From Microvirga soli (GTDB lineage: Bacteria > Pseudomonadota > Alphaproteobacteria > Rhizobiales > Beijerinckiaceae), in assembly GCF_016734765.1 (NCBI RefSeq), contig NZ_JAERQE010000012.1, forward strand, positions 1-64,000: 64,000 nucleotides of DNA. The letters are read 5' to 3'. Made by a program: the position numbers and the translations under genes. This document shows, piece after piece, positions 5,211 to 27,624 of this stretch. Each line of letters opens with the position of its first letter. Position 1 is the stretch's first letter. The notes beneath the pieces are model-generated. The model had not been told where the DNA came from. It made no database searches and saw only the letters and a program-made list of their open reading frames with translations.

Positions 5211-5223
5211 CGAAAAACTCTGC

Positions 5224-8200
5224 TCAGCGCTTGCTGATGTTAAGGTGATCCAGAATCTCAGCAGTCCGGGCCTTGAATGAATGCTTCTCCCGGACATGGC
5301 GCGAGACTTTTGAGCCGTCAAAGCCACGAAGGCCTTCGACCAGCGCAGGAAGCTTGGAGCTGTCGGAATACGTCCGCACGGCATCGCCGAAGATCTGATC
5401 CAGCCCTTCAACGAAGTCCGTGATAACAGGCCGACCAGCCGCAACGACATCGAAGATTCGATTCGAGATGATTCCGTACTCCCGCATCGTCAGCCAGTGA
5501 TCATTCAGGACCACGGCCGCTGACCCGTACCAGTTGCCGAGGTCCTCGTTTGGAATGTACTCACCGCGCACGTAGTGAGAAGGAAGGAACGGATCCCAGT
5601 CCTTTCCATACACCACTAAGGGCAGCCCTTGCTGTACGGAATCCAACACGATGGTTCGCGGCTGGAGGCGAGAATTGCCGACAAACAGAACCTTTCCGGA
5701 GACCGCGTCGACTGGCCTGACCCGATCAACGCAGAACCGCGCCGGATCGGTTGCTTGCAGCAGCAGGTGCGAGTCAACGCCGAGAACCTGCCAAAGGTGA
5801 GCCTTGAGTTGGTACCCTGCCGCAAAAACAGCATCCATGGCCGCGTACTCGTCGGGCCGAATCTTGTCGGGATGGCTGATCACCCACATGGCATTGAGGG
5901 CGCTCTTGACCGGCTTCACGTCCACGATGCCGCGAATGTGCAGGACGACATCGCCAGCCGAACTCTCCTCGCTCCAGTCATCACGAAACTCAATAACGCC
6001 TGAATGACCATAGTCTTCCAGCGCTGCAATGATCGATTGTGCGTAATGGTAGTCCCCCCAGGAGTCTTTTTCAGGAGAGTTCGGGGCGGGGCACCGCAAC
6101 GCAAACACCAGTGGCCGGGAAACGGCTGGTGCGACCAGCGCGCTGCCGCTGTGGGTATCAGGAAGAAGATTCCAGTTTACCACCGAGGTTGGCCTCTTGC
6201 GCGGATCACGCAAGGCAAAGCCTTCCGGAAGGCTCGGCTCGATGCGCAGCTTTCCAAGCCATCGCTCCTTCAACGCATCGAGCTCCTTAAGGTACTCGTT
6301 CTGCGATGATGCCGGCGAAAGCTTCTTGTTGGCGCTCAGGCGGGTGTCGAGATGGACGACGGTTGCACGAGGGTCCGCACTCAGGAGCCGAGCGGCAAAG
6401 TCAGCAAGACCATATGTGACGGCGAAGTCGGCTTCAAAGCCGCCGAGCTCTCGGAACGTCTGGGCATGGATCAGGACAGGCGAGGTCACCGGAATGATGC
6501 CGTGGATTTGTCCAGCTCTCGGCAGGTCCGATTGACCAGTTAAGGTAGGCAGGAGGAGAGCTGACGTAAGGTCCAGGCGCGCGAGCTCATTCACGACGAC
6601 GGTCGCTGGATCAACCACAAGGGGGAGTGCCAATGCGGAGGGTCGCTGGCCTGCCACCCGCACAAAGTCGTCTACGGCGCTGGCCTCATAGGTGACGCCG
6701 GACCGCCACACCAGGAGGTGGTGTCCCTTTGCAATGGACGCGGCCAGGTTTGCCGCGGGATATTCCTGGAAGGAGCGCCAGAGATTGATTACCCGCACAT
6801 GCCTTGTCTGCCGTGCCAGGGCATTGAGGAGGTTTGTGGCGGCGAAGGTCAAGGCATTGTTGACGATGATCAACTCGTGACCGGACTCGACAACGTGCCG
6901 GACCGCTGCCCAGAGATCATCCGTAATCGCGGCCCAATCCGCGTTGGAGATCGGCCAGACGATCGAAACAGAACACTCCCCGGCAGGCGCTGTTCCGACG
7001 ATATGAGGATCAAGATTGATATTTCTTTGACAGACTTTGTAGAAGTCGCCGGACAGCTCGCTCGTCGTGATGCGCTCCAAGGTATCATTGTCGTCCACGT
7101 AGTTGCAGCCGATCACAGGAACAAACAGGGGGTCTGCAATCTTGCTGATGCGCAGGATCAGGTCCCAGTCGACGCAACGCCGCAGATTTTCATCGAAGGC
7201 AATCCCGTCATCGACGAAGCGGCGATGATGAACGTACACGTTCATATCGATGTAGTTTTCACGACGCAGGGCGTCGAGATTGAACACGTCGCCGCGGTAC
7301 ACGACAGTGCCGGCGGCGTTGAAAACCCGTAAGGTAGAGTAAGCCGCCGCGGCCTGCTTGAGGATCATTGCTTTGAGGGTGATCTCAAGGTGGCGCGGTT
7401 CCCAGTAGTTATCTGAGTCTAGGTATGCAATGTACTCGCCACGGGCCCTCCGGATTCCCTCATTGCGTGCGGCACTGACGCCGCTTGCGGCAATCGGGAT
7501 GTAAACGACCCGTGGATCAGGTATGTGTGTCCGCAGAAGCTTTTCTGTGCCGTCTGTGCTTCCGTCGTCAACGACAATAAGCTCAAGGTTGGCGTGAGTT
7601 TGGCTCAACACGGAACGGATCGCGCGCTTCAGAACGCTGGCACGATTGCGCGTCGGCATGATCACTGAGACCAGGGGAAGGGGCCTCTCGGAGGGGCCAA
7701 ACTGGGCGTCGATATCCCGGGCGTATTTCTCTGCGGCCGTCTCATTGAAGACAGCGTACTGACGCGCGATTGGCTCCCACCGTTTGGCACGGTTGGCCGT
7801 GAAGGTTGTTCCAGCGTGGGCTTCGCGTTCGAAGCGATCAACCAGCCAGGCCTGACCATTCACGGGCGGCAAGATGCCGTTATGTGGTGGCGTGTTGCCC
7901 TCGGTAAAAACCGTCTGGATGCCTGGGACAACAGTCGATCGAGACGGATTTGGTTCAAGAAACGCTGTTAGAGCCTCTGACGCTCGCCCCCGCGGCTCGA
8001 CCTGAACCGCAGGGTGCGGCGCATGTCCTGCGGCGCGCCCTGTCTCGAGAAAATACTCGAATGCCTTTTCTTTCGCTTCAGCCGGAATCTGCTCAGCGTA
8101 CCATTTCAGGTCAAACCGTGGATGGGGACGCCGGCCCTCACGCTGCCCCGAGGTAATGAAATGACGCAGCGGCGCTTGACGCGCTCTCGCGACGTCCGCA

Positions 8201-9837
8201 TGGCGTTCGAGATAATAGCGTGGATCGAACCCAGGACACGGATGCCGCTGAAGCTTTTCCCCAGTATCGGCAAACTCCTCTAAAGCTGAGTTATGCCGCT
8301 CCGGGCTGCCATAATGTCCCTTGTACCAATCTGGGTGGAAAAGCGGGATCGGCAGCAGACCGTCTTTTTCTCCATGCAAGATGTAATCTGCGAGAGCCCG
8401 GAATGTGGTCGCACGACCGGTCACTTGCCGTAGGTAGTAGCGGGGATCGAAGTAAAGGTGGGTCCGAATTTCCCGGCCGCGGTAAGCGGTCCAGAATGTC
8501 TCGTACGCCCGAGAGGCATCTACATCCTTGTTGTGACGGACGACGAGAGTCAGATCGAGCAACGGGTGCGGGGATTGAGCAGAGCCGCTGTGTTGGGCGA
8601 GATAAGTCTCGAGCGGAGTTCGCTGCGTATTGCTCCCAAGGTCGAAAAGCCTTGCGACGAGGCTATGAGAGAACAGCCAGTTTGGTTCCCGAGCGCCATT
8701 CTGCCCGTTCAGCAGGTAATCTATCCAAGGGTGCTGATGATCTCGCGTCTCGTAACGTGAGCGATACCATGCCATTGAGAAGCAGGGGTGCGGGTCTGCA
8801 TCGATCCTGTGGCCGTTGTGCAGGAAATGCAGAAACAAATCCTTATTCTGGATGGACTTGTCGCCAACTTGCTTCGCATAAAAGGCATGATCAAACAGGC
8901 GATGCGGGCTCAAGCCCTTATGCCGTCCATGATTCCACCAGTGGTCGAACGGCGCCTTCGATCCCCCGACACCGTCCGGAGCTTGATCGGCATACCATTC
9001 TGCATCGAAGAAGCGAGATGCAAGCACCTTCCAGTCAATCTTTTGGCTGGCAGGAGCGGCTAATTCCGGTTGAGTTTTCTTCTCAGCCGGAGTGTCATCG
9101 GAGCTCTTCTCGTCGGAACGAGCTAGTTTATCAGTGGGATCAGTTTGGGCTCTCGATCCACGAGAGGACGACACCGTTCCTAAAGAGAGAGTGCCATCGG
9201 GCAGGAGAATGCTGCCGAGCAGGGCAGATCCCTCGGCGGTTTGAACTGCGATGTGCACCTCTGCGGGCTTGCTGACGTCCATCGGTATGCTGCTGAGGGC
9301 AACCTGGAAGGCATGTCGGCCATCGCCGATATTAGCTTTTACCAGATCGCTCCGCTTCCGATCGGCTGCGACTTTGGCGACGACAACTCCATTGACATGT
9401 AACTCGACCGGAACACGCGACGTGGGATGCTGCTCATCCCAGACCCAGCCAATGATCTTGCCGTCCCGCAGTCCCTCCAATCGCCCACGGATCGTTTGAG
9501 ATGGAAGTTGACCCTCAAGCAGAACAGTTCGAGCATCCACAAGGATGGCACGCCCATCAGCAGCCACAGCCTCAAGCGTCACCTGATGCGTCCGACCATC
9601 ACACAGCTGCAGCGGGAGGGGCAGTTCGAATGCATGGGCGCCGCTTCCAATCCCTGCACGGAGCAAGTCCTTTCGGCTTCTGTTCGCTTTCACAGAGCCG
9701 ATGACAGCGCCATCAATACTGACCTGAGCGACAAGGGGCTCGGTTGGGTGGTTGGCATCCCAGATCCACCCGTGCAGAGCGTTCTTCAGGGTGCGGTCGA
9801 TCTTGCCCTTTATCGACATCACTTCAATCTTGGTCAT
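5224..9837 (-). CDS. giant modular glycosyltransferase: beta-sandwich modules, FD-x2-WY repeats, GT2, CgeB-like GT
   Basis: About 1537 residues from the ATG at 9837; a TTG three codons earlier is less likely. In order: two ~100-residue beta-sandwich modules (about 10-215) with GW(I/V)WD and R-x-D-L motifs, then a low-complexity linker (~220-270). Next come roughly nine degenerate ~36-residue repeats beginning FD-x2-WY (about 275-620). A GT2 domain follows (from ~725) with V-S-V-I-M-P-T-R-N, V-V-D-D-G-S-T-D-G-T and L-D-S-D-N at ~810, then a second degenerate GT2-like segment (~970-1195). The C-terminal domain (~1230-1530) has K-D-W-D-P-F and S-N-R-I-F-D-V-V-A-A-G-R-P-V-I, typical of CgeB-like GT4-fold enzymes. 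It presumably adds two different sugars in a surface polysaccharide on the cytoplasmic side, as no membrane segment is seen. The WbsX gene follows after 13 bp, and ugd lies 104 bp upstream on the same strand. Confidence 0.85.
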   Translation of the reverse strand: MTKIEVMSIKGKIDRTLKNALHGWIWDANHPTEPLVAQVSIDGAVIGSVKANRSRKDLLRAGIGSGAHAFELPLPLQLCDGRTHQVTLEAVAADGRAILVDARTVLLEGQLPSQTIRGRLEGLRDGKIIGWVWDEQHPTSRVPVELHVNGVVVAKVAADRKRSDLVKANIGDGRHAFQVALSSIPMDVSKPAEVHIAVQTAEGSALLGSILLPDGTLSLGTVSSSRGSRAQTDPTDKLARSDEKSSDDTPAEKKTQPELAAPASQKIDWKVLASRFFDAEWYADQAPDGVGGSKAPFDHWWNHGRHKGLSPHRLFDHAFYAKQVGDKSIQNKDLFLHFLHNGHRIDADPHPCFSMAWYRSRYETRDHQHPWIDYLLNGQNGAREPNWLFSHSLVARLFDLGSNTQRTPLETYLAQHSGSAQSPHPLLDLTLVVRHNKDVDASRAYETFWTAYRGREIRTHLYFDPRYYLRQVTGRATTFRALADYILHGEKDGLLPIPLFHPDWYKGHYGSPERHNSALEEFADTGEKLQRHPCPGFDPRYYLERHADVARARQAPLRHFITSGQREGRRPHPRFDLKWYAEQIPAEAKEKAFEYFLETGRAAGHAPHPAVQVEPRGRASEALTAFLEPNPSRSTVVPGIQTVFTEGNTPPHNGILPPVNGQAWLVDRFEREAHAGTTFTANRAKRWEPIARQYAVFNETAAEKYARDIDAQFGPSERPLPLVSVIMPTRNRASVLKRAIRSVLSQTHANLELIVVDDGSTDGTEKLLRTHIPDPRVVYIPIAASGVSAARNEGIRRARGEYIAYLDSDNYWEPRHLEITLKAMILKQAAAAYSTLRVFNAAGTVVYRGDVFNLDALRRENYIDMNVYVHHRRFVDDGIAFDENLRRCVDWDLILRISKIADPLFVPVIGCNYVDDNDTLERITTSELSGDFYKVCQRNINLDPHIVGTAPAGECSVSIVWPISNADWAAITDDLWAAVRHVVESGHELIIVNNALTFAATNLLNALARQTRHVRVINLWRSFQEYPAANLAASIAKGHHLLVWRSGVTYEASAVDDFVRVAGQRPSALALPLVVDPATVVVNELARLDLTSALLLPTLTGQSDLPRAGQIHGIIPVTSPVLIHAQTFRELGGFEADFAVTYGLADFAARLLSADPRATVVHLDTRLSANKKLSPASSQNEYLKELDALKERWLGKLRIEPSLPEGFALRDPRKRPTSVVNWNLLPDTHSGSALVAPAVSRPLVFALRCPAPNSPEKDSWGDYHYAQSIIAALEDYGHSGVIEFRDDWSEESSAGDVVLHIRGIVDVKPVKSALNAMWVISHPDKIRPDEYAAMDAVFAAGYQLKAHLWQVLGVDSHLLLQATDPARFCVDRVRPVDAVSGKVLFVGNSRLQPRTIVLDSVQQGLPLVVYGKDWDPFLPSHYVRGEYIPNEDLGNWYGSAAVVLNDHWLTMREYGIISNRIFDVVAAGRPVITDFVEGLDQIFGDAVRTYSDSSKLPALVEGLRGFDGSKVSRHVREKHSFKARTAEILDHLNISKR

Positions 9838-9941
9838 GAAAATCAAGCCCTTGCTCAGGCGAATGGCTGTTGCACGCCGCTATAAATGAGGTCGCTGAGG
9901 AATGGTCGGCTGTTGGCACCGAGGCCAACGTTCCGGCCTAC

Positions 9942-12001: not shown

Positions 12002-13318
12002 TCAACCGGGCGTCCAAGTCATCAGGCGGGCAGGGGCCACCTCTATATCTTCCTGGCCGTCACGACCCATCCCCTGAGCGCAGCGCTGAACATACATCAC
12101 AAGCTCGCCCCGGCCGCTCCACGCGGCTCGGTCAACGATCGGTTCATAAAAGTCCAGATCCTCATCAACCAGGGTCTGCGGCCGGGCGCGCCTGAGGACA
12201 TAGTCGGGAGGATCAAGCTGGAGTGCAACCAAGCGATTGTTGACCTCACGGCTGCGGTAAAGCACCAAGGCTCGTCCGGTAGGATCAATGAGCAACTCCG
12301 GGCGGCTGTGGGGCAGGGGGAGCGTCCCTCCACCGTCAAGCCGAAAGGGTGTTCGAAACGAACTGACGGGTGCAGTCCGCCATGACAGGTTCTCCAGCCA
12401 GCAGAGCCTGTACTGAGGAATGCCATCGCCTGCATCCCAATAAGTGAGCGCGGCCGGCTTGCCGGTTGGCAGGAGCGCCGCGGCTGCCTGATTGATGAGG
12501 CTGGCCCCGAGCGGCACCGGGATCACCCTCTCCGAGGTCAGGGGGGTCACTGGAAGGGAACTCTCGACCCCGCGATGGGTCCGGACGCTCCTGAGCCCAT
12601 CCTGGGCGACCAGAGCATCCAATCCAACATTCACCACGGCTCCCGCAGAGGTGGCGGTCTCATTCAGGCGCCACACAAGAAACAGGTGGACGGACCCATC
12701 GGGCGCGACAACCGGAGTATTGAGATATGGTCCACAGGACCAGGGCTGACCAAGCCCGCTGATCAAGGGTGTTGCAGATCGTGTCCATTCCCTGCTGTCG
12801 CCTGCGAGCCGATCGACGTAAATTGCCCCCTTGTTATGCCGCCCTCGACGGTGAAGACGCACCAGGCCCTGGTCCTTCAGCGTCAGGAACATGGGGTAGG
12901 TGGCTTCCTCTGCATCCTCCCGAATTTCCTCGAAGCCATCCGTGAGTTCGGCAGACCGCGAGCGGGTCACGAGGAGGCTCGACGCATGAGCCCCAAAGGC
13001 AAGATGGAGGTGGCCTGTCGGGTCGATGCCAAGGCTGATGGCCTGGTGGGCGTCATAGGGTTTACGGGAATTGGTGATGTGGGCCCTTGCAACGGAGCCT
13101 GCCGACGGATCAACACCAGCGACCACAATGTCGCCGGCGTCATCAAAGTAGGCGACGTAGCGTACTCCGTTGTAGGTGCGCACGGCATCGACCCGGTACG
13201 GGACGCAATTGACGCTGTTGCCGGCCCAGGCGGGGCCGAGTTCAATTGTTTGCTGCAGCTGCAAGAAAGCGGTCTTGCTGCTGTGAGAGGATCGCCTTCG
13301 CTGGACTGTCTTTGTCAT
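12002..13318 (-). CDS. BNR-repeat protein (BNR_4 type, putative glycan-binding or lyase beta-propeller)
   Basis: 438 residues without a signal peptide. The start of the fold (residues ~30-75) shows N-C-V-P-Y-R-V-D-A-V and V-R-Y-V-A-Y-F-D-D-A-G-D-I-V-V-A. This is followed by repeated Asp-box-like strands such as I-D-P-T-G-H-L-H-L-A-F-G, V-A-P-D-G-S-V-H-L-F-L-V-W and L-I-D-P-T-G-R-A-L-V-L-Y-R. Tandem D-x-x-G-x-L-H-L strands indicate a beta-propeller of the BNR_4 family, which includes uncharacterised proteins and relatives of polysaccharide lyases. Its place between glycosyltransferase genes suggests it trims, binds or senses the polysaccharide made by the locus, but no secretion signal was seen. 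Activity cannot be assigned from sequence alone. Confidence 0.65.
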   Translation of the reverse strand: MTKTVQRRRSSHSSKTAFLQLQQTIELGPAWAGNSVNCVPYRVDAVRTYNGVRYVAYFDDAGDIVVAGVDPSAGSVARAHITNSRKPYDAHQAISLGIDPTGHLHLAFGAHASSLLVTRSRSAELTDGFEEIREDAEEATYPMFLTLKDQGLVRLHRRGRHNKGAIYVDRLAGDSREWTRSATPLISGLGQPWSCGPYLNTPVVAPDGSVHLFLVWRLNETATSAGAVVNVGLDALVAQDGLRSVRTHRGVESSLPVTPLTSERVIPVPLGASLINQAAAALLPTGKPAALTYWDAGDGIPQYRLCWLENLSWRTAPVSSFRTPFRLDGGGTLPLPHSRPELLIDPTGRALVLYRSREVNNRLVALQLDPPDYVLRRARPQTLVDEDLDFYEPIVDRAAWSGRGELVMYVQRCAQGMGRDGQEDIEVAPARLMTWTPG

Positions 13319-13478
13319 CTGACCCGCCTCGCTGCAGGGGTGAGGCCAAATCGTATTTGAGGGGTGAACTCACCGGAAGTGCGAAGACAAAGACGCTGGT
13401 GTTGCTTGTTGCGTTGCCTGAATCTCGGCCTCAACTTTCAGCCGATCGCCGAAAAGTCCTCGGCAGGGGCACGATGGT

Positions 13479-14454: not shown

Positions 14455-17400
14455 TCAGATTGGAGCGGCCCCAAGGTCACTTCCCGTTGCCGGGTGGAAC
14501 GGGCGTTTGCGTTCGATCACGTCACGATACAAAGCCTCGTACTGCAGGCCCATATGGTCGATCGTGTGGACCCTGCTGTAGCCGTTCTGCCAAGACGTGA
14601 TCTCGGCCACACAGGCCTGATGACTCGCTGCATCATCCCGGATGCTGAGCAGGAGCCGGTAAAGGTCGTTCGCTGTGCTGCCGAGCGGCAACAGCCATCC
14701 CCCACCATGGGCCTTAATGCGTTCTCCCACAGCGCCGCAGTCGATCCCGACAACGGGAACGCCTGTGGCCCACATCTCCGTGAGCGTGTGACAATAGGTT
14801 TCCGGCCAGACCGACAACACGGCGCCAATGTTCGGCCGGATCGCCTTGACCAGGGCTCCAAACTCGTCTCGCTTGTAGCGGCCGTGGACCACGAGACCGG
14901 CCCGGGCCTTGAGCCTGCCGGGATCGCCAAGAATATGGAATTCGAGCGTCTCACCGCGGTCCGCATCCACAACGGCGCTGATGAGCTCTGCACCTTTTGC
15001 CGCTGAAATATTCCCGGGAATAAGAATACGCATCCGGCTCAGACGGTTCGGCTCCTCGGAGTCCAGCGACATCTCCTCGAAAGATCGTCCATGAGGGATG
15101 ACACGAAAGTCCTTATCGAGAACCTGCGGATAGACGGATGTAAACACCTCTTTGGCTGACTCTGCTGTGGTCACCAGCGCGTCCGATGTCTCAAGCACTG
15201 GACCGAACATTTCTCGCCAGCGATGAACGAAGCCATGCTTCAGGCGCGGAAACTGAGCCGATGTCCACAGCTCGACGGAGCAGTCGCCAGCCGTCGGCGT
15301 GCATGTCCCAGCGCAGTAGACGCGGTTCTCGTCCAGCAGCTTCGTGGCCGGACAGGTGGTGTAGAAGTCATGGAGCGACAGAACCACCGGGATCCCGAGC
15401 GTTCGGCATACACGCGGGAGGTCGATGCCGTGCCAGCCCAAGTGACGAATGTGGACGAACTCGAAGCCATAGCGCACAAGCATCGACGCGATAACATCAT
15501 TATACTCGGGCGAGGTGTGCAGCGCCGGCTCGATCCTGGTCGCCAACGTCACCGTTTCGACAAGCACGTCTCCTGTGGGATCATACCTATAGATCTCGAC
15601 GGCTTTCGAGTCGCATCGGAGCACCCATGGCTCATACCGATCGGCAAGCGTCGTCATGAGATCGCGGTTGGTCTGAGGCGTTCCGCCCGTCTGGGTCGAG
15701 ATCACGAATGCATAGCGGGGTCTCGGGGCCAACTGCGCATCGCCAAGCTCTACGATCGCCTTGCGCACCCGCCAGCGCATCGAGAGGATCTCGGGACCGG
15801 TTGTAAACAGCGAGGTCAGCCTTTTGTATTCGGGGTACCGGGCCTCGATCACTGCGCGTCCGGCCGCATAGTGGCCATCCTTGCTGTCGCCAAAACTGGC
15901 GGATCGCTTATGATACACAAACGTGCGGTCGTCGATGATGTTCAGCAGACCGGCCCGGCCCGCTCGCATGCAAAAGTCGTTCTCCTCGCCGTAACCGACG
16001 GGAAACGCGGCCTCATCCAGGCGGCCGATTTCGTTGATCGCATCCCGGCGGACATAAAGACAGAAGCCGTTGCCGGTTGGAACGCGGGGGTAGGATACCG
16101 CTGACGCGTGACGGACCAGGCGCGCGAAATCATCGACGGAGAAGCCAGCAGGGAGGGCATTGTCGACGCCTATTTCCGGAACGTTAAAGGCCCCGGCGTT
16201 GTTGGAGGTGGGTGTCACGGTCGCGACACGGAGGTCACTGTAGGCCGCAGCCTGCATGCCCTGCAGCCAGCCTGGGGTGACGATGGTATCGGAGTTCAGG
16301 AAAACAACGTCATCATCGCCAGCCAACTCGATCCCGCGGTTGATGGTACGGGTAAAGCCAAGATTCGATTCATTCTGGTGAATGTCGATGTTGCTGTGCC
16401 CACGATAGGTCGCAAGAATTGCATCGACCTTGGGATCCGGGCTGCAGTCGTTGATCACGATGAGCCGACAGGGCATGGTCGTGTTGCGCACCAACGACTC
16501 GAGACAGCGGGCGAGATCATCGGCGGCATTATACACCGGCACGATGACGGACACACCGGCGGCGCGGGCTCGGGTGAGATTGGCGAAGAGGTTTCCGAGA
16601 GCGGCACATTTCGCTGACGGGAGGTCCAGCGTTGCGTTCGCGCCCTCAAGGAAGGTCGTTGTCAGAGCCTGGGCAACCTGGATGGTCACCTTGCTTTCGC
16701 CAAACTTTGGATTCGCCGGCTCAAACCTGAAACCACCACCCCGATCGGTTAGGCCCGCCCGAACGAGGTCCTCGCGGTTCCTGTCAGCGGGAAATGTCGC
16801 GTAGCGCACCCCGTCGACCAAGACATCCAGTTCCAGCGTGGTGGAGCTTTTCTCAGACGGAACAAGCCACCCCGAAACTCTGTCGGCCTGAGCAATCTCG
16901 AGGCGGCCTTTGGCTGGTCTCACGAGAGCAATGTCACGGATCACAGCCGCATGCCCGTTGATCATCAACGCAACAGAGGAGAGTGCGTCCTCATCCAAGA
17001 TGAGTCTAGGTTCAAGACCTCGGATTTTGGCGATTAGATCCTTGCAGCTTATTGCAAAGTGTGACCGTACAACTCCATGGGCGCTCCAGGCCCGAGCGTC
17101 GGCACTATCGGCCACTAACGGGATTGCTAAATCCAATCGGCCCAGGAGGCGCAAGGTCACACTCGATGGATGCGCGTCCTGATCGATGGACAATAATGCT
17201 CCGCGAAGACCATGTTCGCTCACGCTCAAATCGTAAAGGTGGCTTGATGGATTAACAGGCTGTGACGGGAACTGAATCGTGAGTGGCTCGATTGCAGCCG
17301 AAGGAGTCAATCGCAAGGCCTGGGGGAGAGGCTGCTCACGATCAAGGCGGAAGGCGGCCATGAAGCCTGCATAGCCGTCGGCGATTCCAGCTGCCCTGAT

Positions 17401-18396
17401 ATCCTCTCGGTAGTTCAGAGCTCCGACCACGATCGAGTCGGATTGAACGCCGATGAGTTCTGCGCGAATCGGACCTGTCACGGCTGATTTGTCAGAACAG
17501 GATGTCCAGCCCGACACCAGCAGTGAGCGGCCACTGCGAAAGACCGTTTCGATATAGGCCGTGAGTGTTTGCGCTGGGAGCGGGGCGTTAGCTGTCTCAG
17601 AAGCGAGCGCCTGCCTCTCCTCAGGACTGGGCGGCTCGTGGGGATCCGCCGGACTTATAAGCTTTTCGGTTTTCGTCCGACTTTGAGGCGCATCAGAAAG
17701 ACTAATTGGTGGAAATGGAGCAGTCGATGATTGACTGAGTTCTTCGCTGATCGGCTCGCCTGACCCAAGGTCGACATCAACAGAGGCTATAATTTCGCCG
17801 CCTGATAGCAAAGTCAGCGTATGATTCTGGCTGTCGAGCGAAGCGGCTTTGAGGGATTGGGCTATGCGTGCAACGACATCCTCATGACGCACTTCAAACC
17901 CGAACACATCTTGCCAGTATGGAACATCGGGGCGCGGCTTATTGTGGCTCAAGCGCACTTCATGCTTTCCATCCAGAAGCAGCCGCACAGAAGCGTCTGA
18001 GAGCCGGATGGCTGGATCAAATACCCACCCCTCGATGAGACCGCCCCGAGTCCGGTCGATTGTACCAAAGGGCACGAAGCGCGCCAATTTGGTCAGGGAA
18101 CTGACCAAATTGGCGGTTTCTATGCCGTCAATAGAGGCGACGACAACTGGATGCTCAATGCCGGATTCCCGGAGCGGGATTGCGATTTGGAATGCGGCGT
18201 GCCCGCCGGCGATCCCTGCCGCTTCTAAATCCTGCCGGTAGAGAAGTTTCGGGACGAGCCCAGTGCTTGAGCCTGGAATCGAGATTGTTACCGGTCCGGA
18301 AACGGGGCTTTTTTCGCGATATGCCACCCAACCTGAAAGATAAACGAACCCGGCCCCGAATTCGACCCGCTCTGTATGGCCGATCAGCTGACTCAT
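14455..18396 (-). CDS. giant modular glycosyltransferase: five beta-sandwich modules, GT2, GT4
   Basis: About 1313 residues from the ATG at 18396, where the first beta module begins; an earlier in-frame start adds 19 unconvincing residues. The N-terminal ~600 residues hold about five beta-sandwich modules. Two carry Y-R-x-D-(L/I)-x2-A-G-I-A-x-G followed by A-F or G-F, and the last carries a variant (N-R-E-D-L-V-R-A-G-L). They are related to the modules of the 1537-residue protein. A GT2 domain begins near residue 610 (V-S-V-I-V-P-V-Y-N, I-N-D-C-S-P-D, F-L-N-S-D-T at ~699, G-Y-G-E-E-N-D-F-C). A GT4 domain follows from ~895 (H-D-F-Y-T-T-C-P, I-P-G-N-I-S-A-A-K-G at ~1125, W-P-E-T-Y-C-H-T-L-T-E-M-W-A-T-G-V-P-V-V). 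The GT4 part resembles rhamnosyl/mannosyltransferases that extend surface glycans. Acceptor and donor are unknown, and no membrane anchor is visible. Confidence 0.85.
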   Translation of the reverse strand: MSQLIGHTERVEFGAGFVYLSGWVAYREKSPVSGPVTISIPGSSTGLVPKLLYRQDLEAAGIAGGHAAFQIAIPLRESGIEHPVVVASIDGIETANLVSSLTKLARFVPFGTIDRTRGGLIEGWVFDPAIRLSDASVRLLLDGKHEVRLSHNKPRPDVPYWQDVFGFEVRHEDVVARIAQSLKAASLDSQNHTLTLLSGGEIIASVDVDLGSGEPISEELSQSSTAPFPPISLSDAPQSRTKTEKLISPADPHEPPSPEERQALASETANAPLPAQTLTAYIETVFRSGRSLLVSGWTSCSDKSAVTGPIRAELIGVQSDSIVVGALNYREDIRAAGIADGYAGFMAAFRLDREQPLPQALRLTPSAAIEPLTIQFPSQPVNPSSHLYDLSVSEHGLRGALLSIDQDAHPSSVTLRLLGRLDLAIPLVADSADARAWSAHGVVRSHFAISCKDLIAKIRGLEPRLILDEDALSSVALMINGHAAVIRDIALVRPAKGRLEIAQADRVSGWLVPSEKSSTTLELDVLVDGVRYATFPADRNREDLVRAGLTDRGGGFRFEPANPKFGESKVTIQVAQALTTTFLEGANATLDLPSAKCAALGNLFANLTRARAAGVSVIVPVYNAADDLARCLESLVRNTTMPCRLIVINDCSPDPKVDAILATYRGHSNIDIHQNESNLGFTRTINRGIELAGDDDVVFLNSDTIVTPGWLQGMQAAAYSDLRVATVTPTSNNAGAFNVPEIGVDNALPAGFSVDDFARLVRHASAVSYPRVPTGNGFCLYVRRDAINEIGRLDEAAFPVGYGEENDFCMRAGRAGLLNIIDDRTFVYHKRSASFGDSKDGHYAAGRAVIEARYPEYKRLTSLFTTGPEILSMRWRVRKAIVELGDAQLAPRPRYAFVISTQTGGTPQTNRDLMTTLADRYEPWVLRCDSKAVEIYRYDPTGDVLVETVTLATRIEPALHTSPEYNDVIASMLVRYGFEFVHIRHLGWHGIDLPRVCRTLGIPVVLSLHDFYTTCPATKLLDENRVYCAGTCTPTAGDCSVELWTSAQFPRLKHGFVHRWREMFGPVLETSDALVTTAESAKEVFTSVYPQVLDKDFRVIPHGRSFEEMSLDSEEPNRLSRMRILIPGNISAAKGAELISAVVDADRGETLEFHILGDPGRLKARAGLVVHGRYKRDEFGALVKAIRPNIGAVLSVWPETYCHTLTEMWATGVPVVGIDCGAVGERIKAHGGGWLLPLGSTANDLYRLLLSIRDDAASHQACVAEITSWQNGYSRVHTIDHMGLQYEALYRDVIERKRPFHPATGSDLGAAPI

Positions 18397-19247
18397 TGTG
18401 GCGCTCTTGTATTTGATTTGTATCACTGCTGAAGAGGGGAGGTGCTGTGGCACATTATTGCAGCTCCCACGCGAATATCAGGTCCTGAGCCAATTACCCG
18501 TTCGCCATTAGTATAGGAATAGTATATGAAAACCTGCGCTGTTTCATCTTGACCGATTGGTTCACATGGCGCTCATGTACAACCACTTCCGCCGAGCAAG
18601 GTTCGAAGGCTAGGGCTTCACGTCGATAAAGGGGTTCGACGGTGGTTAGATTCTCATCGGCGCAGGAGATTTGGTGCCCGAAGCCCACATTGGCCTCGGA
18701 GGCCAGGCTTACATCGCCTGATACGATTGCTTCGAAGTACATGTCCACCTGCCCCAGAACAGCCAATCGGGAAGTCTCAATGAGCTGAGCCATCCTCTGA
18801 ACGTTGTGAGTATGTCTATTAACTTCCCGAGCTAAGGTGAGCAATCCCGCAATGTTTTCGCTGCTACACCGCCGGCGCACCTAGGATCTGTAGGATCAAC
18901 CTTATCGAAGTAGCAAAACTTACCTCTAAGACTCTCTAAGACGCTTTTGAAGGCAGGATGGGCTGAAATGTCGCAACAATGCGCTTGCTGGTATGAAATT
19001 ACTGAAGGCAGACCTACCTGAACGGTCGATCGGGAATGAGATGACAGCCTTGAGTTGTGGCACTTGAAGATAGATTGGGCTCGTGTCCGTAGCGCCAGTA
19101 TGCATAACTCGTGACGCTCGCGATCTAAGGTGGTACAGGATTACAATAATTCGTCCGAAGGCGACCAAGCAGATTTTGGCAAGCACCAATGCCCTAAGGC
19201 TGATTAATCCGCTGTGAGACTGCTGGCGCGAGTGCGATCATCTTGAC
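18397..19247. other. 851-bp intergenic region with a doubtful minus-strand reading frame
   Basis: The main open frame is on the minus strand from 18880 to 18494 (about 128 codons). Its first codon is a GTG directly after an in-frame tag stop, there is no ribosome binding site, and no family is recognised, although parts (R-M-A-Q-L-I-E-T-S-R, V-V-V-H-E-R-H-V) look protein-like. It may be the 3' remnant of a glycan-locus gene. The upstream part serves as the divergent promoter space between the 1313-residue protein and the plus-strand gene at 19248. No clear promoter hexamers were found. Confidence 0.3.
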
Positions 19248-20956: not shown

Positions 20957-21931
20957 TCACCTGATCGAGTTATCATACTCCCACCATTCGCCAACCTTAG
21001 TGTTCCAGAAGTCAGGGCTGAAGGCTCTGTACGCATTAGTGGGTGTGAGGGTGACTTCACCAACTTTTACGCCGAAGACCGGAGACCAGAAAAAGTCTAT
21101 ACGGCTGAAAGGCATTTCACATTTTGTAGCCATTACTTTCGCCATTCCGACCATCGTGTCTAAATGTTTTGGGCAAGGCGGAGGGGCTGAACTCATAGGA
21201 AAGCCCTGGAGGATGGGCATCAGGTTCCAATCAACGTCAAAATAATCACGCGTATGACCTTGCTGACTATAGCTATTCTGATCGACCTGAATCAGCCGAG
21301 GCTCACCTTTGAAGCAGAAAAAGCGGTAATCGACAGCGTCATTCGTTCCAAGGGATTTCTCTAAAAAGATCTTCTTCGGAAAGGTCGAGTAATGGAACTC
21401 GCCCCAGGCGTAGCCGAAATTGTCGCTTAACCACTCGTGAGCTTTCAACTTAAGCGTTTCTGCTACGGCCGTGCGATCTTCACTGGTGAGTGTTATGCGC
21501 AGGTTGGTTCCGCTCGCATGATTGGCTTTGAAGTAGTAAATTCCATCTGGAAGAGACCAGACAACTTGTTCTAGCTGCTCTGCCGTGTCTGAGAACCACA
21601 CGATCTCGGCGACGTGATTTTCGCCAAACAAAGCTGCCGCAGTCTGATTTACATAAACCTTATCTGCCAATGAAGGTATGGAGAATGGGACGAGAAATTT
21701 GGTGGCGAAAACCTTTTCGTTGAACGTCTTAGGACTTTGGATGGAGGGCAAATAGCCGTTTCCGAGGACAAATATCTCTAATGAGTTTGCAACTGCGACT
21801 CTTAGATCGACGCTGTTATAGAAGTCGATTCCGCGGATCTTGCCTGGTTGCCTCGCTGTTTGAGCTGACAGGAGGGACATCAGGTCGCAGTATGGCCGAG
21901 CAAGCTCTAAAAATTTTTGTTTCGGTTGCAT
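20957..21931 (-). CDS. TupA-like ATP-grasp protein
   Basis: The ATG at 21931 gives 324 residues; a TTG 14 codons upstream is less likely. Motifs of the TupA-type ATP-grasp family of polysaccharide loci are visible: P-K-T-F-N-E-K-V-F-A-T-K-F around residue 70, L-A-D-K-V-Y-V, Y-Y-F-K-A-N-H-A-S-G-T-N (ATP-grasp strand and glycine-rich loop), F-L-E-K-S-L and D-Y-R-F-F-C-F-K-G-E-P. The late acidic metal-binding stretch is S-R-I-D-F-F. The founding member, TupA of teichuronopeptide synthesis, adds amino acids to uronic-acid polymers. Here, with UDP-glucose dehydrogenase in the same locus, a role in attaching an amino compound to uronic acids of the glycan is a reasonable but untested inference. Length is normal for the family. 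Confidence 0.8.
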   Translation of the reverse strand: MQPKQKFLELARPYCDLMSLLSAQTARQPGKIRGIDFYNSVDLRVAVANSLEIFVLGNGYLPSIQSPKTFNEKVFATKFLVPFSIPSLADKVYVNQTAAALFGENHVAEIVWFSDTAEQLEQVVWSLPDGIYYFKANHASGTNLRITLTSEDRTAVAETLKLKAHEWLSDNFGYAWGEFHYSTFPKKIFLEKSLGTNDAVDYRFFCFKGEPRLIQVDQNSYSQQGHTRDYFDVDWNLMPILQGFPMSSAPPPCPKHLDTMVGMAKVMATKCEMPFSRIDFFWSPVFGVKVGEVTLTPTNAYRAFSPDFWNTKVGEWWEYDNSIR

Positions 21932-22135
21932 GGTTCGCGATTTTTGTTGGTATGGCTGATGGTGCTTAAGCAAGATCCGACCGAAGATGACAGGTCGCTG
22001 CCGCCATTGGCTAACCTGACGGATCTTGGTCTGAGTTAGCTGTTATTGGTGAGCCCGAAGCAATGCCGTCAGGTCCTCACCAAGGCTGCCTTTGCTTGAT
22101 CTTTTCTTTGTACAGAACCGCCGCTGGGGGGCGTC

Positions 22136-22999
22136 TCAGAAGGATCCACGAAATTCCGCCGGCAGGCGCAGAAGCTCTCGTCCGAACAGCACGGTGTTGA
22201 CCCAGTATGTTTCCTGCTGCGGATGGCCTTTCTTTTCAGCCTCTTTGAATTCCTTTAGATATCCAGCGAGGATACCTTCGGTCGCGGAAAATGGATCTTC
22301 GTCGATGACGGGCAGGTTGCCCCAGTTTCTCATCATGGAGACCATGCTGTCGTCCGGAACCCTTTGATGTGATCCTGCATCAACGCGGGCCCAGTCCATG
22401 GAGCGGGTGATTGCAAGCCGGTCGAGGGTGTGCCCAACGTCAACGTATCTGAGATGGAACAGGAAGATACTGTCGAACACAGCTGGGGTTTGTCGACTAT
22501 GGAAACCCGGCGACCAGACGACCTCTGTTGATGTGAGATTGGGTTTATTCATCGCAGATGAATAGTGAATATAGGAGCGCTGGAGCGAGATAAGGTTAAA
22601 GGGATCCAGATCCCCCTCAATCCCTATCTTATGTAGTACGTCCAGTCCGATCGAGGTTGCATATTCTGGCCTTACTCTCTCACAATAATCCTTCAACCCA
22701 GCGTATTTGCGTGGGTCTGCGACAAGTAGTTCATCGCAATCGGTGTAAAGAACGTAATCGTAATATTTCAGCAGGGAATTTGTGAGTTCGCCAATGAACT
22801 TGGTTCGTAACTCGTTGTTCTGGGGGGAGCGCGGGAGCCTGATGATATTTGCACCGCCGAGATTGGCGGTGGAGCCATCGGTGCTCCCATGATCGACAAC
22901 GAAGCAACTGTCGACGCCAACCTCCCGCGAATAATGTCGGAGCCAAAGTGGGAGCTTCAGTCTCTCGTTATAAACCATTGTGATCGCGGCTATTCGCAT
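22136..22999 (-). CDS. GT2_4/GT92-like glycosyltransferase
   Basis: 287 residues, ATG at 22999 preceded by a good agga ribosome binding site. The N-terminus shows the family pattern A-A-I-T-M-V-Y-N-E-R-L-K-L-P-L-W-L-R-H-Y, then V-V-D-H-G-S-T-D-G-S and Y-T-D-C-D-E-L-L-V (the DxD-like site). H-L-R-Y-V-D follows near residue 185. This is the short form of the same superfamily as the protein at 19248-20645, without the N-terminal extension. It is transcribed leftwards, in line with the TupA-like gene about 200 bp downstream and the repeat proteins upstream. A cytoplasmic sugar transfer step in the polysaccharide is likely; donor unknown. Confidence 0.8.
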   Translation of the reverse strand: MRIAAITMVYNERLKLPLWLRHYSREVGVDSCFVVDHGSTDGSTANLGGANIIRLPRSPQNNELRTKFIGELTNSLLKYYDYVLYTDCDELLVADPRKYAGLKDYCERVRPEYATSIGLDVLHKIGIEGDLDPFNLISLQRSYIHYSSAMNKPNLTSTEVVWSPGFHSRQTPAVFDSIFLFHLRYVDVGHTLDRLAITRSMDWARVDAGSHQRVPDDSMVSMMRNWGNLPVIDEDPFSATEGILAGYLKEFKEAEKKGHPQQETYWVNTVLFGRELLRLPAEFRGSF

Positions 23000-23180
23000 A
23001 GTTCGTCCTAATCCAAGTTCTCTTGTTTGATATTTAGGCGGTTAACGCTCCGAATGCGACGATCAGCCTGTGATATCGAGTGCGCAAAGCATCTAAGGTC
23101 GATAGCCGTTCCACAGCAGCTGGATAGCCCCTAATTCAAACATACGAAGTTGCGCCCGAGGTGCCTTACTGGAAAAGCCT

Positions 23181-23651
23181 TTACGCAGGCTGCTCCTCTT
23201 GGTGCTCTGGTGCGCGGCCAAACGCGACCTTCCACTGATAGGCGTCCTGCTGAGCTCTCGCATTCGGGCTTCGGCCTTCGGCCGCGCCGGCCATGATAAA
23301 GTGCTCGGCGGCCGAATTGATCTTTCCAGCGCGGATCGCCGCGTCGATGTCAGGATAGGTTTCGCGATACCAAGCCTCGTCGACATCGGGTGTAGCACCA
23401 GCGCGTCCCTCAAAGAAGCCGTAGCCGATATAATGCAGACGTGCGGAGCGAACCTGGCCGTTTTTGACGGCTTCCGCGACATCTGGATTATCCCGCAGAT
23501 AGCCGGCCTCGTTGAACGAGCCCGCCGTCAGCAGAAGCTGCAGCATAAACCTAAACAGATCTGCCGGAACCGTGAGCTGGTCGGCCGAGTGGAACTCCTC
23601 GGCCGAGGTGTTCATGTTTTGCAGGAATGCGGAGAGTGGAGGAATGAACAC
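23181..23651 (-). CDS. stand-alone FD-x2-WY-type repeat protein without catalytic domain
   Basis: 156 residues from a GTG at 23651; the ATG at 23615 is the alternative start. There is no enzyme domain. Two copies of the ~40-residue repeat seen in the giant glycosyltransferases are present: F-N-E-A-G-Y-L-R-D-N-P-D-V with H-Y-I-G-Y-G-F-F-E-G-R, and V-D-E-A-W-Y-R-E-T-Y-P-D-I with H-F-I-M-A-G-A-A-E-G-R. It sits 61 bp downstream of the 1303-residue protein on the same strand, so the two are probably co-transcribed. It may be a free adaptor that binds the same partner as the repeats of the large enzymes, or a surviving piece of a former fusion. The repeat itself has no assigned biochemical role that I know of. 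Confidence 0.75.
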   Translation of the reverse strand: MFIPPLSAFLQNMNTSAEEFHSADQLTVPADLFRFMLQLLLTAGSFNEAGYLRDNPDVAEAVKNGQVRSARLHYIGYGFFEGRAGATPDVDEAWYRETYPDIDAAIRAGKINSAAEHFIMAGAAEGRSPNARAQQDAYQWKVAFGRAPEHQEEQPA

Positions 23652-23712
23652 TATTTGGGCGCCCTGTGGATTAGATACGATTGGGTCTGGCTGATATGCG
23701 GCTCAGTGATTT

Positions 23713-26700
23713 TCAATTATTCGTTTGTTTGACGACTCGGAATACTCTGCGAGGTTTGTTGAGCGCGGGATCCGGCTCGGGTTCCGCATCGGCAGGACGT
23801 TTGGCTTTGAGCTGGTCGGTCACCTCAGCCAGATAGGATTGCTGAGCCCGCTGGATGGTCTTCGGCAGGTCGAAGGCCTGCGCCACAAGCTCCTGGATCC
23901 CTTCAATCTCCGCAACGTGCTTATCGGCCCGCATCGAGTGGGTCACGCTCTCGGCGTGACGCCGGTGGACGTTGAGGGACATTGCCTCATAGGCCACCTT
24001 CGCACCTGGCTCCGACAGCACCTCGAGATAGAGCCGCCAGTCGCCCGCCATCCGGAAGGTGGCAAGATCGTCCTCGCACCGGTCAAGGGCGCGCAGCAGG
24101 GCATCGCGCCGCCAGACGACGGCACTGACGTTCAAAATCAGGTTCTTGACTGACATAAACCGCCGGACGAACTCATCGCCGTCAAAGACGCCGCTGTGGC
24201 TCAGTGCGCCGGGTTGAACGGTCGCATAGTAGCTCTTGTAGCTGTCCCACTGGGGCAAGCCGTCGCTGGTGATCGTCCGGCTGTCTGAGAACCCCAGCAC
24301 GATGCTGGGATCCTCCTCCATCGCCGTCATGATCTCGGCCAGGAACGCGGGTTCGGCGAAATCGTCGGCTTCGGCGATCCACAGGTAATCACCGGTGGCG
24401 AGCTCGGCCGCCTTGCGCCACTGCGCAAACACCCAACCGGAGTTCTCCTCGTTGGGAACGAGCTGAATGTAGCGGCGCCACTCGCCGGACACCTGGCGGA
24501 TCACCGGGATGCTGTCGTCGGTGGAACAGTCATCCAGCACAATCACCTCGTGGACGGGATAGGACTGGCCGAACACGGAGCCCAGGCGATCGGCCACGAA
24601 GCGCGCATAGTTGTAGTTGGGCACCGCCACGGAGACCTTCTGCAGACCGGGCAGCACCAGGCGCAACAGGTGCTGCACATAGGGCGCAAAGGCGAAGGCC
24701 TGCTGTGCCTGCTCCTGCTGTTCGCGCCGCGCCTCCAGGCTGCGGGGCTCCTTGGTCAGTTCAACGAGCGCCCGGGCCATTGCGTCGACGTCGCCATGCG
24801 GCGCCACGGCTCCGAAGCCGGTTTCCCGCAGCATGTCAGGAATGCCGCCGGAGCGGTCGAACGCCACCACCGGGGTTCCGGTGCTCAGAGCCTCGAGGAC
24901 CACGGACGGGAAGGGATCCTCGCGCGAGGTCAGCACAAAGGCATCTGCCGCAGACAAATAACTTTCAACGGCTGTCTGATAGCCGGCCAGGTGGAAGGTG
25001 CCGGTGGCTTTGGCATCCGCGAGCTCGATTCCGAGCCAGTCTTCCAGCTGCGGGTCCATGCCGCCTACCCAGCAAAAATGCATGCGGCCCGGCTGGTTGG
25101 AGGTGGCGGACGGCGCCTGGAGCATGCGCCACAGCGACAAGAAGAGGTCAAAGCCCTTGCGCATGTCAGCGTAGCCCATACCGAGCACGAGGCAGTCGTC
25201 GGCGGTGAGGCCGAGCTCGGTGCGCACCTGTGCAGCCGCCTCGGCCGAGAAGCTGACCTTCTTGTAGAGCCCGTTCTGAATGATGCGCATCCGGCTGTCG
25301 ACCGCAATGTCCAGCGCCTCCGTCACCTTGTCCCGAACGTATGGCGCCGGAAAGACCACGCTCGTGGCGGCCGCCAAGCCAGCCTTGGCGCCAGCCGCCA
25401 GGTTCTTTTCCCGGATGATACGCGGCAGCTCGTGCACGAGCAGGTGCGTGTCGAAGCCAAGAGTCTTGGCGCCGGGAATGATCCGGGCGGCGGCTGTGGT
25501 GTTGACGATTGCGCTGGTGAATCCGCGCTCGTGTAATTCCCTGAGGCGGCGCAGGGCCTCCTGGTCACTGCCTGCCACCGTTGTCGGAGCCAGGGCCGCA
25601 TAGGCATCCTGCAGCTTGCCTCCGCCGAGGAGCAGGAACGCGATCTCCACGCCATGGCGGGCGCGCAGGTCGTGCCCAATGTTGAGGAGGAGCTGCTGCG
25701 CTCCGCTCGGGAAGGCGTCATGCCCGATCAGGACCACGCGCGAGTTGGTCCGCTGCGACACGCCCGTGACGGCCCGGCTGGTGGCGTTCAGATAGGCCGC
25801 GCCGTAGTGCAGATCCGGTTCCAGGTAGGCGCCTTCGCACCACTCGTTCCAGGCGTTGACGCACACAAAGGCTTCGCCAAAGAACGGTGTGGTGTTGGCC
25901 TGGTCGATGAGCTGGTTCAGCCAGGTCTCATACTTGGCCGGCGTCGATCCAATCAGCGTAAGGCCGGATCCCTGCCGGCGGGCATCATTGTCCCAACTCG
26001 GCACAGCGGTCTTGATGAGCGGGAAGGACGCCGACGGGGCGTCCTCGAGCGAGACCCGCACAACGTCGTCATAGTGATAGACCCTGCCGTCAAACTCGGG
26101 GTCCAGGATCTGCAGATTGTTGGCAATCGAGGGGATCGCGGCGGTCAGCTTGTGCGGCGGAAACTCGATTGCCCCATCAAGGCCGAAGACCCGCGGGTCG
26201 GTGTCGTTGAAGCTCTGAGCCATGACGATGATGGGATCTTCATCGAACTGTTCCTGGAACATCGCGCGCCAGCGGGCGAGCGTCTCGACCGTGTCGGGGA
26301 TCAGCCGTGGGCGGTAGATCATGAGCAGGGGGCGCCCCTGAACCCGGATGTAGCGCGGGTCCTGGAAGTGGCGGCCGAAATCGGCCACGAGGCGGGCATC
26401 ATCGTCTTCCAGATAATCCTGGGAGATCAGGACTTCGCTTTCCGCGCCATCCCACCGGCGGGTCCAGTTCTCGTTGGCCCACATCACGCAGAACGGCATC
26501 TCGATCGACGGATCATCGAGGAAGCGCTCCATCGGAGCATCCATGATCCGCCGGCCGTTGAACCAGTAATAGTAGAAAACAAAACCGAAGACCCCGGCGT
26601 CCTGGGCCATCTTCACCTGGCGCCGGAGCGCCTCATTGGTCTCCAGGGTATAGAAGCCGAGATCGCGCGGCACCCGCGGCTGATAATGGCCGGCAAAGCG

Positions 26701-27624
26701 TGGGATGCCGCGCGGCAGGTTCGACCATTCCGTGAAGCCCTTGCCCCACCAGGCATCGTTTTCGGGAAACGCATGGAACTGGGGCAGGTAATAGGCGAGC
26801 AGCTTCACCCGCGGCTCAGACACCGCAGCCACCGGCTTGAACTCCTCAAAGTCCGGACCGGGCTTGGTGAACCGCTTGATCTCGCGCGGAATCGAGACCT
26901 CGTCCTCCGGCATACGCCCGTGGACACCCGGCTCATGCTTGTGCGCGATGAAATGAAACAGCGGACACTCGGCGGTTGAGCCCCCCAGGTACCGCTTGAT
27001 GTAGAAGCGGGTGTCAAAATCAGCGGACGGATTGCGGCCTTCCCGAAACCCGGCGTTGATGTAGTGCTCGAAGGGATCGATCGCCGCCGCGGCAATATCC
27101 GGATAGGTATGGTAGTAGTACTCGGCATCAAATTCGGGAAGCGGGCTGACCTGCCCTGTGGTGCGGTGCGCGAGGAAGTGGGCAAACGCCAAGCCCTGGC
27201 CTTCAATTCGATATCGTTCGCGGTACCAGACTGGGTCGAAGATCGGGGTCGGCCGGCGCCCCTCGCGCTCGCCGATCAGAACATAATGGGTGAGGGGCTC
27301 GATCCCAGCCTGCCTGATGTCGGCGTAGGTCGCCAGGTACCAAGCGGCATCGAAGTAGGGGTTCGGCCGTCGCCCGGAAAAGGCACCGGTGGTGATGTAG
27401 TGCTCGAAAGGGTCCGCGCCGGCCTCACCAACGTCCGGATACGCGCGGACATACCACTCTCCGTCGAAAAGCTTCGCCTGTAGCAGGAGAGAGCGAAGCT
27501 CCTCTGGCGTGGACGGACGCTCCTCTGCCGCCTGTGCCAGCCCCGTTTCATCACCGATCCGCCGTTCGAGCTCGTCGAAAAAATCGAGCGCGGTGTGACC
27601 ACCCTGTCGCGAGAATGTCTTCAC
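23713..27624 (-). CDS. giant modular protein: FD-x2-WY repeats, WbsX domain, GT4, GT2
   Basis: 1303 residues from a GTG at 27624 preceded by a gggg ribosome binding site. Five ~36-residue repeats (about 53-240) follow F-D-x2-W-Y-x3-Y-x-D-I, D-P-F-E-H-Y-I-x2-G-x2-E-G-R-x-P. A WbsX/GH99-like domain (~275-600) shows Y-Y-L-P-Q-F-H, W-G-K-G-F-T-E-W-S-N, W-A-N-E-N-W-T-R-R-W-D and N-A-W-N-E-W-C-E-G-A. A GT4 domain (~628-975) has S-R-E-D-P-F-P-S-V-V-L-E-A-L-S-T-G, and a C-terminal GT2 domain (~1000-1240) has V-S-V-A-V-P-N-Y-N, L-D-D-C-S-T-D-D-S and A-E-A-D-D. So three glycan-active domains sit in one chain. This fits a multi-step assembly enzyme for one repeating unit. The C-terminal ~40 residues are basic and Pro-rich. 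No membrane segment is seen. Confidence 0.88.
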   Translation of the reverse strand: MKTFSRQGGHTALDFFDELERRIGDETGLAQAAEERPSTPEELRSLLLQAKLFDGEWYVRAYPDVGEAGADPFEHYITTGAFSGRRPNPYFDAAWYLATYADIRQAGIEPLTHYVLIGEREGRRPTPIFDPVWYRERYRIEGQGLAFAHFLAHRTTGQVSPLPEFDAEYYYHTYPDIAAAAIDPFEHYINAGFREGRNPSADFDTRFYIKRYLGGSTAECPLFHFIAHKHEPGVHGRMPEDEVSIPREIKRFTKPGPDFEEFKPVAAVSEPRVKLLAYYLPQFHAFPENDAWWGKGFTEWSNLPRGIPRFAGHYQPRVPRDLGFYTLETNEALRRQVKMAQDAGVFGFVFYYYWFNGRRIMDAPMERFLDDPSIEMPFCVMWANENWTRRWDGAESEVLISQDYLEDDDARLVADFGRHFQDPRYIRVQGRPLLMIYRPRLIPDTVETLARWRAMFQEQFDEDPIIVMAQSFNDTDPRVFGLDGAIEFPPHKLTAAIPSIANNLQILDPEFDGRVYHYDDVVRVSLEDAPSASFPLIKTAVPSWDNDARRQGSGLTLIGSTPAKYETWLNQLIDQANTTPFFGEAFVCVNAWNEWCEGAYLEPDLHYGAAYLNATSRAVTGVSQRTNSRVVLIGHDAFPSGAQQLLLNIGHDLRARHGVEIAFLLLGGGKLQDAYAALAPTTVAGSDQEALRRLRELHERGFTSAIVNTTAAARIIPGAKTLGFDTHLLVHELPRIIREKNLAAGAKAGLAAATSVVFPAPYVRDKVTEALDIAVDSRMRIIQNGLYKKVSFSAEAAAQVRTELGLTADDCLVLGMGYADMRKGFDLFLSLWRMLQAPSATSNQPGRMHFCWVGGMDPQLEDWLGIELADAKATGTFHLAGYQTAVESYLSAADAFVLTSREDPFPSVVLEALSTGTPVVAFDRSGGIPDMLRETGFGAVAPHGDVDAMARALVELTKEPRSLEARREQQEQAQQAFAFAPYVQHLLRLVLPGLQKVSVAVPNYNYARFVADRLGSVFGQSYPVHEVIVLDDCSTDDSIPVIRQVSGEWRRYIQLVPNEENSGWVFAQWRKAAELATGDYLWIAEADDFAEPAFLAEIMTAMEEDPSIVLGFSDSRTITSDGLPQWDSYKSYYATVQPGALSHSGVFDGDEFVRRFMSVKNLILNVSAVVWRRDALLRALDRCEDDLATFRMAGDWRLYLEVLSEPGAKVAYEAMSLNVHRRHAESVTHSMRADKHVAEIEGIQELVAQAFDLPKTIQRAQQSYLAEVTDQLKAKRPADAEPEPDPALNKPRRVFRVVKQTNN

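Follow-up and report, generated by a model that had tools for sequence, protein, structure and literature searches.

We analysed a stretch of 64,000 nucleotides of Microvirga soli DNA (contig NZ_JAERQE010000012.1, positions 1 to 64,000; hereafter the window) in which three giant proteins, here called P1, P2 and P3, combine glycosyltransferase (GT) domains with two kinds of N-terminal module. The first-pass annotation of this DNA had reported three giant genes, and a check of open reading frames (ORFs) finds them where it placed them, all on the minus strand: P1 with 1540 codons (5224-9846), P2 with 1332 codons (14455-18453) and P3 with 1303 codons (23713-27624). One module is a repeat of 38 residues, F-D-x2-[WYF]-Y, present in P1 and P3; the other has about 100 residues, reads GW...RxDLxxAGI and is present in P1 and P2. 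A small protein encoded next to P3 also consists of repeat units. The features are as follows.

5224..9834, minus strand: P1, 1536 residues, with two ~100-residue modules, a repeat array, a GT2 domain and a Glyco_trans_1_2 domain
9511..9816, minus strand: P1, first ~100-residue module (profile, E 3e-36)
9193..9495, minus strand: P1, second ~100-residue module (profile, E 3e-38)
8005..9009, minus strand: P1 repeat array, seven clear F-D-x2-[WYF]-Y-type units and two degenerate ones (profiles, one of them independent)
7081..7668, minus strand: P1, GT2 domain, residues 723-918 (Pfam)
5248..5643, minus strand: P1, Glyco_trans_1_2 domain, residues 1398-1529 (Pfam)
14455..18393, minus strand: P2, 1312 residues, with four supported ~100-residue modules, GT2 and GT4 (Pfam, profile)
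16621..18384, minus strand: P2, region of the ~100-residue modules at 18085-18384, 17761-18072, 17263-17568 and 16621-16914 (profile)
23713..27624, minus strand: P3, 1303 residues, with five repeats, WbsX, GT4 and GT2 (Pfam, profile)
26908..27468, minus strand: P3 array, five repeat units (profile)
25780..26799, minus strand: P3, WbsX domain with the NEWxEG motif (Pfam, alignment)
24703..25212, minus strand: P3, GT4-type (Glycos_transf_1) domain, residues 805-974 (Pfam)
24256..24633, minus strand: P3, GT2 domain, residues 998-1123 (Pfam)
23181..23651, minus strand: two-unit stand-alone repeat protein, 156 residues, directly downstream of P3 (profile)

As judged by their profiles, both the repeat and the ~100-residue module are real and unnamed in Pfam, NCBIfam and PHROGs. 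A profile built from the P3 units alone scored P1 at 63.4 bits, and the best of 500 shuffles of the P1 array region reached 13.2; with a profile from the two P1 module copies, P2 scored 59.1 bits against 4.7 for the best of 500 shuffles of its N-terminal region. The modules that the annotation had seen as shared by P1, P2 and P3 are thus confirmed by cross-protein profiles that beat all 500 shuffles. The profile from the two P1 copies did not find the ~100-residue module in P3, and the two degenerate repeat units of P1, at about residues 390-461, are seen only with a profile whose units include both. A fifth beta module suggested for P2 (about residues 400-510) found no profile support, so four copies are supported and not five. 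The predicted enzyme domains were recovered by Pfam, the P1 C-terminal domain under the name Glyco_trans_1_2 and not as CgeB-like, which was the annotation's own word. No Pfam match at E <= 0.1 covers the repeat or the module in P1 to P3, and NCBIfam and PHROGs gave nothing on either among the matches listed (for NCBIfam, 25 of 27 families for P1 and 25 of 46 for P3); identity of the repeat with an already described domain, which the annotation had allowed for, therefore finds no significant match behind it. Profile searches of the PDB gave a best E of 1.4 for the repeat array and of 8.7e-4 for the module, the latter to a short stretch of a mitochondrial ribosomal protein, and both were taken as chance.

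Within the genome of M. soli (6.2 Mb), all 11 repeat matches of a broader profile at E <= 0.1 fall in P1, P3 and the 156-residue protein. This fourth carrier had been missed, and the earlier list of carriers was to that extent incomplete. Three more matches off the contig were obtained with the first repeat profile (E 0.066-0.77) and were taken as chance. The ~100-residue module has six matches in P1 and P2 at E <= 1e-24, the sole other match having E 0.046. Among 65 repeat hosts and 58 module hosts of the window and of the class sample described below, no ORF other than P1 has both modules, and there is none in the further loci L173-L255 either (100 ORFs with the repeat, 9 with the module). 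Both units of the small protein are of a longer form. Its homologue, defined by a match over at least 141 of the 156 residues, stands directly behind P3 in nine fetched loci, namely L177-L182, L184 and L258 (eight, from L173-L258) and L260. In N. lacus, P3 and the two-unit gene account for all six repeat matches at E <= 0.01 (150 of 165 candidates scored). Four fetched acetic-acid bacterial loci have stand-alone two-unit frames of 139-222 codons away from P3, and 18 acetic-acid bacterial genomes have 12 to 23 repeat matches each.

The reading that we favour, tentatively and with somewhat less than even confidence, is that the repeat array is a non-catalytic tether, that the two-unit protein is its dedicated partner, and that the locus is an exopolysaccharide cluster of the EPS II (exp/wge) kind. 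It starts from what is established at the level of sequence: the modules, the five-unit array of the P3 relatives, the gene pair of P3 and the two-unit protein, and the gene neighbourhood. P1, P2 and P3 would be multidomain enzymes of sugar-chain assembly, and the arrays at their N-termini, made of short repeats (P1, P3) and of ~100-residue modules (P1, P2), are probably not catalytic. The repeat array would hold the enzyme in an assembly complex, the protein encoded behind P3 would bind the P3 array as its partner, and the repeat units may be helical hairpins. The RTX protein and exporter encoded nearby would serve the polymer, as reported for ExpE1, ExpD1 and ExpD2. The docking role that the first-pass annotation had proposed has gained a candidate partner (the two-unit gene behind P3 in nine loci) and has lost the restriction of the repeat to glycan enzymes. 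It is indirectly supported because of this gene order and because there are genomes with matches only in the pair, or in the pair and P1; docking of the repeat arrays, now with a candidate partner, is possible. We consider rather unlikely a wider version with homotypic docking, in which two-unit adaptors would join the repeat enzymes into an assembly line and the longer form would do likewise for RTX-type exoproteins outside the cell. If true, one repeat family would organise both the synthesis and the surface display of the polymer. In any case one repeat family, unnamed in the libraries searched, joins sugar-polymer enzymes, small stand-alone proteins and RTX-type proteins, and P3 with its two-unit neighbour is a small system for asking what the repeat binds.

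The remaining genes of the locus that bear on this reading are the following.

4092..5450, minus strand: second WbsX gene, 452 residues (Pfam)
28249..31479, plus strand: GT2-like protein of 631 residues (ExpE2-like; Pfam score just under the cut-off) and GT4 protein of 441 residues (ExpE4/E7-like)
31603..35085, plus strand: rmlC, rmlB and rmlA, dTDP-sugar genes
35688..36902, plus strand: RTX calcium-binding-repeat protein, 404 residues, ExpE1-like
38906..41957, plus strand: type I secretion ABC transporter and HlyD adaptor, ExpD1/ExpD2-like

No rmlD was identified among the window ORFs scanned. That the modules sit on glycan-assembly enzymes in a polysaccharide locus is supported in the window. 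The suggestion that few, multi-headed enzymes build the repeat unit does not fit, because single GT genes stand beside P1 to P3 (19248-20645, 22136-22999, 30154-31479 and 42268-43551). The RTX protein and type I exporter in the same locus, together with long-form repeats on RTX-type proteins elsewhere, could also mean that enzymes with the repeat attach sugars to proteins with the repeat, which they would recognise by means of the array. We regard this as very improbable, since the RTX protein of the window has no repeat match and the whole-genome search gives P1, P3 and the small protein only. Also among the polymer genes is a BNR_4 protein (12002-13318) with a below-cut-off match to an alpha-L-rhamnosidase model, and at the far end of the window lies a phage-integrase-like ORF (62666-63961) whose score is under the Pfam cut-off.

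To follow the architecture of P3, named genomes were searched with three P3-type arrays, and loci were fetched by array similarity (the best 80 of 112 relatives). Repeats, WbsX, GT4 and GT2 occur in one ORF in 41 of the 80 loci, and 12 more ORFs have repeats with all or part of WbsX and without the full set. By record title the complete loci belong mostly to genera that we take to be Acetobacteraceae. When the units of orthologues are compared, those at the same position are 52-64% identical and those at different positions at most 47%; the fixed register understates units 3 and 5, and with units 1, 2 and 4 only the values are 53-64% and 40-47%. These data bear on whether the arrays act as passive spacers and owe their spread to domain shuffling, as could be suggested by the variable number of modules and by a congener with a 1303-residue frame that has two repeats and the GT half of P1 without the ~100-residue modules. 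We think this unlikely, as five units are found in 40 of the 41 complete P3 frames (seven in the other), units of the same position are the most alike, and the stand-alone two-unit proteins have nothing to space.

Several P3 loci deserve separate mention. The seven-repeat P3, 56% identical to that of the window, comes from a record titled Mycobacterium sp. Marseille-P9652 (L229), and contamination is possible. Microvirga aerilata has, upstream of P3 and on the opposite strand, a frame of 1297 codons that contains 24 RTX-like motifs (L176:2314-6207). In seven Gluconobacter/Asaia or proviral loci (L173, L191, L198, L201, L205, L207, L211) the P3 match ends at residue 356-361. An integrase-like ORF and phage-like genes, labelled by eye, follow the broken P3 of L205, and L173, an IMG/VR contig, is identical to L205 at the break over 1650 bases. 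The rest of the broken P3 was located elsewhere in five of six such genomes searched, and P3 may be a prophage attachment site. Phase variation as the origin of broken P3 frames is unsupported: of ten frames that are broken or short, nine lack any G or C run of at least 7 over 3.9 kb. L216 has two such runs, and L201 has a run of eight T. We also dropped the idea that P3 is polE of acetic-acid bacteria, because the PCR fragments described in a passage of PMC5553594 (3000 bp with polE, 1950 bp without) put polE at about 1 kb, far below the ~3.9 kb of P3.

The following results weigh against a tether dedicated to sugar-chain assembly with a paired partner. The first is the range of hosts in the class sample of 385 genomes, M. 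soli included, where the repeat occurs in at least 24 genomes and the module in at least 29; these are lower bounds because at most 19 (repeat) and 12 (module) candidates were scored per genome. From the 91 stretches fetched around the matches, Pfam at E <= 0.001 found RTX repeats in 24 of 60 repeat hosts outside the window, together with GT2 in 8, Glyco_trans_1_4 in 6, RgpF in 5, subtilase in 3, PhyH in 3, CAP in 2 and beta-lactamase in 1, where one host may fall under several domains. The claim that the modules always stand next to GT or WbsX domains therefore fails for the repeat, and a wide presence of the repeat in unrelated non-glycan proteins, named by the annotation as the opposite case, is found in part, in those 24 hosts, with subtilase, CAP and beta-lactamase domains among the 60 as well. 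By iterated profiles, 16 of 62 repeat hosts have glycan-enzyme domains, 29 are RTX-type and 17 are neither, RTX-type meaning at least one match to a nonapeptide pattern and glycan hosts being matches to profiles built in this analysis. Second, with 3 or 4 candidates scored per genome, a near-full-length P3 match occurs in at least 3 of 149 other relatives, a fourth (G467) has a 1485-residue frame with repeats placed otherwise than in P3, and none of the 149 has a full-length P1 match among the matches listed; the locus looks accessory. Third, M. aerilata has four repeat matches in P3 and one in a 74-residue frame ~12 kb off (150 of 154 candidates scored), and no second repeat ORF stands beside P3 in L186-L224, mostly acetic-acid bacteria by title. 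Finally, the repeat is not in general tied to an EPS II setting, because the ABC transporter and HlyD pair is found in 0 of 15 class-sample repeat-glycan loci (stretches up to 20 kb) and the acetic-acid bacterial P3 loci list neither gene. Of the module loci 11 of 42 have this pair, as do 2 of 24 repeat-RTX loci, and EPS II-like clusters are therefore associated with the module more than with the repeat.

The two kinds of repeat host lead to the main rival of the tether, which is that both modules bind sugar chains: the enzymes would hold the growing polymer and exported RTX-type proteins would anchor to the same surface polymer. A single ligand inside and outside the cell would explain both kinds of host, and the repeats are rich in aromatics. 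Consistent with this, the array is C-terminal in 19 of the 29 RTX-type hosts (from 7 genomes) and N-terminal in 10 of the 16 glycan-enzyme hosts (from 14 genomes). Hosts with at least one long unit number 26 of 29 among the RTX-type, 3 of 16 among the glycan enzymes and 5 of 17 among the others (RTX-type versus glycan, Fisher p 3e-6, treating hosts as independent, which they are not), so that RTX-type hosts have mostly the longer unit and glycan enzymes mostly the short one. The 56 hosts of the ~100-residue module, 22 of them glycan enzymes, none RTX-type and 34 neither, also include proteins with methyltransferase, sulfotransferase, Hint and AIDA domains. However, the conserved aromatic positions of the repeat are common to nearly all units and may be core residues, neither profile has a believable relative among solved structures, and phage records gave none for the P1 modules as query and one, unannotated, for the P3 repeats. 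Sugar-chain binding is possible, if doubtful. Ten further repeat hosts were scanned, and six of them gave GT, RgpF or methyltransferase domains at E <= 0.001, with two of the six scoring only under the curated cut-off. On the E. coli plasmid pYLMB20b (L256), two proteins carry the repeat, one annotated as methyltransferase and the other as GT2; they belong to a capsule-like cluster with ABC transporter genes.

The WbsX domain of P3 has likenesses of its own. A profile of 17 WbsX sequences gave 10 PDB hits to E 10, and 7 of them bear the name glycosyl hydrolase family 71 or endo-alpha-mannosidase; the match is weak (best E 0.0028), and WNEWxEG aligns with FNEWHEG. In the entries 5lyr, 4ad1 and 4acy, which we take to be GH99, NEWHEG aligns with the NEWxEG of WbsX. 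EWxE is a catalytic motif of GH99; NEWxE is kept in 17 of 17 aligned WbsX domains and the following G in 16. Because of the weak structure match and the kept NEWxE, WbsX is possibly something other than a glycosyltransferase. Of the 13 best Bradyrhizobium plasmid records over the P3 repeat match, 12 are named "glycoside hydrolase family 99-like domain-containing protein" and one lipopolysaccharide biosynthesis protein; the name covers the WbsX part only and leaves the repeat, GT4 and GT2 unmentioned. Unlike the PDB glycosidases, the WbsX of P3 is fused to GTs, and these matches, motif and names suggest that P3 may have a hydrolase-like domain and two transferases in a single protein.

In its type I pair, RTX protein, rml genes and ExpE2/E4/E7-like GTs, the window neighbourhood resembles the EPS II cluster of S. 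meliloti. The exp names used here are presumably correct by gene order, the records giving products only. The ABC transporter is 36% identical to ExpD1 over 541 residues and the HlyD adaptor 27% to ExpD2 over 466; the RTX protein is 48% identical to ExpE1 over 164 residues, a stretch of low-complexity RTX repeats. The GT4 protein is 40% and 36% identical to ExpE4 and ExpE7, and the GT2 protein 31% to ExpE2. The ~100-residue module also occurs in the ExpE5-like protein, and the ExpE6-like protein matches it weakly. A comparison with ten S. meliloti proteins gave no repeat and no match to WbsX, P3 or the two-unit protein; P1 and P2 had matches only by way of their ~100-residue modules or GT2 domains. 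In passages of two reviews (PMC1403797, PMC3233446) that treat the roles of the exp genes, the EPS II cluster includes dTDP-sugar genes, a feature which the window shares with its rmlC, rmlB and rmlA.

In L177, L178, L179 and L182, window-like ABC and HlyD genes precede P3, and the EPS II-like setting together with P3 and the two-unit gene recurs on the Bradyrhizobium plasmids pNK6c and pS11L-4. On pS11L-4, a calcium-binding protein, the type I pair, P3, the two-unit gene and rfbBACD stand in one run, P3 being 56% identical to that of the window over 1244 residues and followed by the two-unit gene. The same order of P3 and two-unit gene is found on pNK6c, where P3 is annotated as two coding sequences. 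Through the pair of P3 and the two-unit gene, the question why a secreted RTX protein is required for EPS II extends to a set of relatives outside the model rhizobium.

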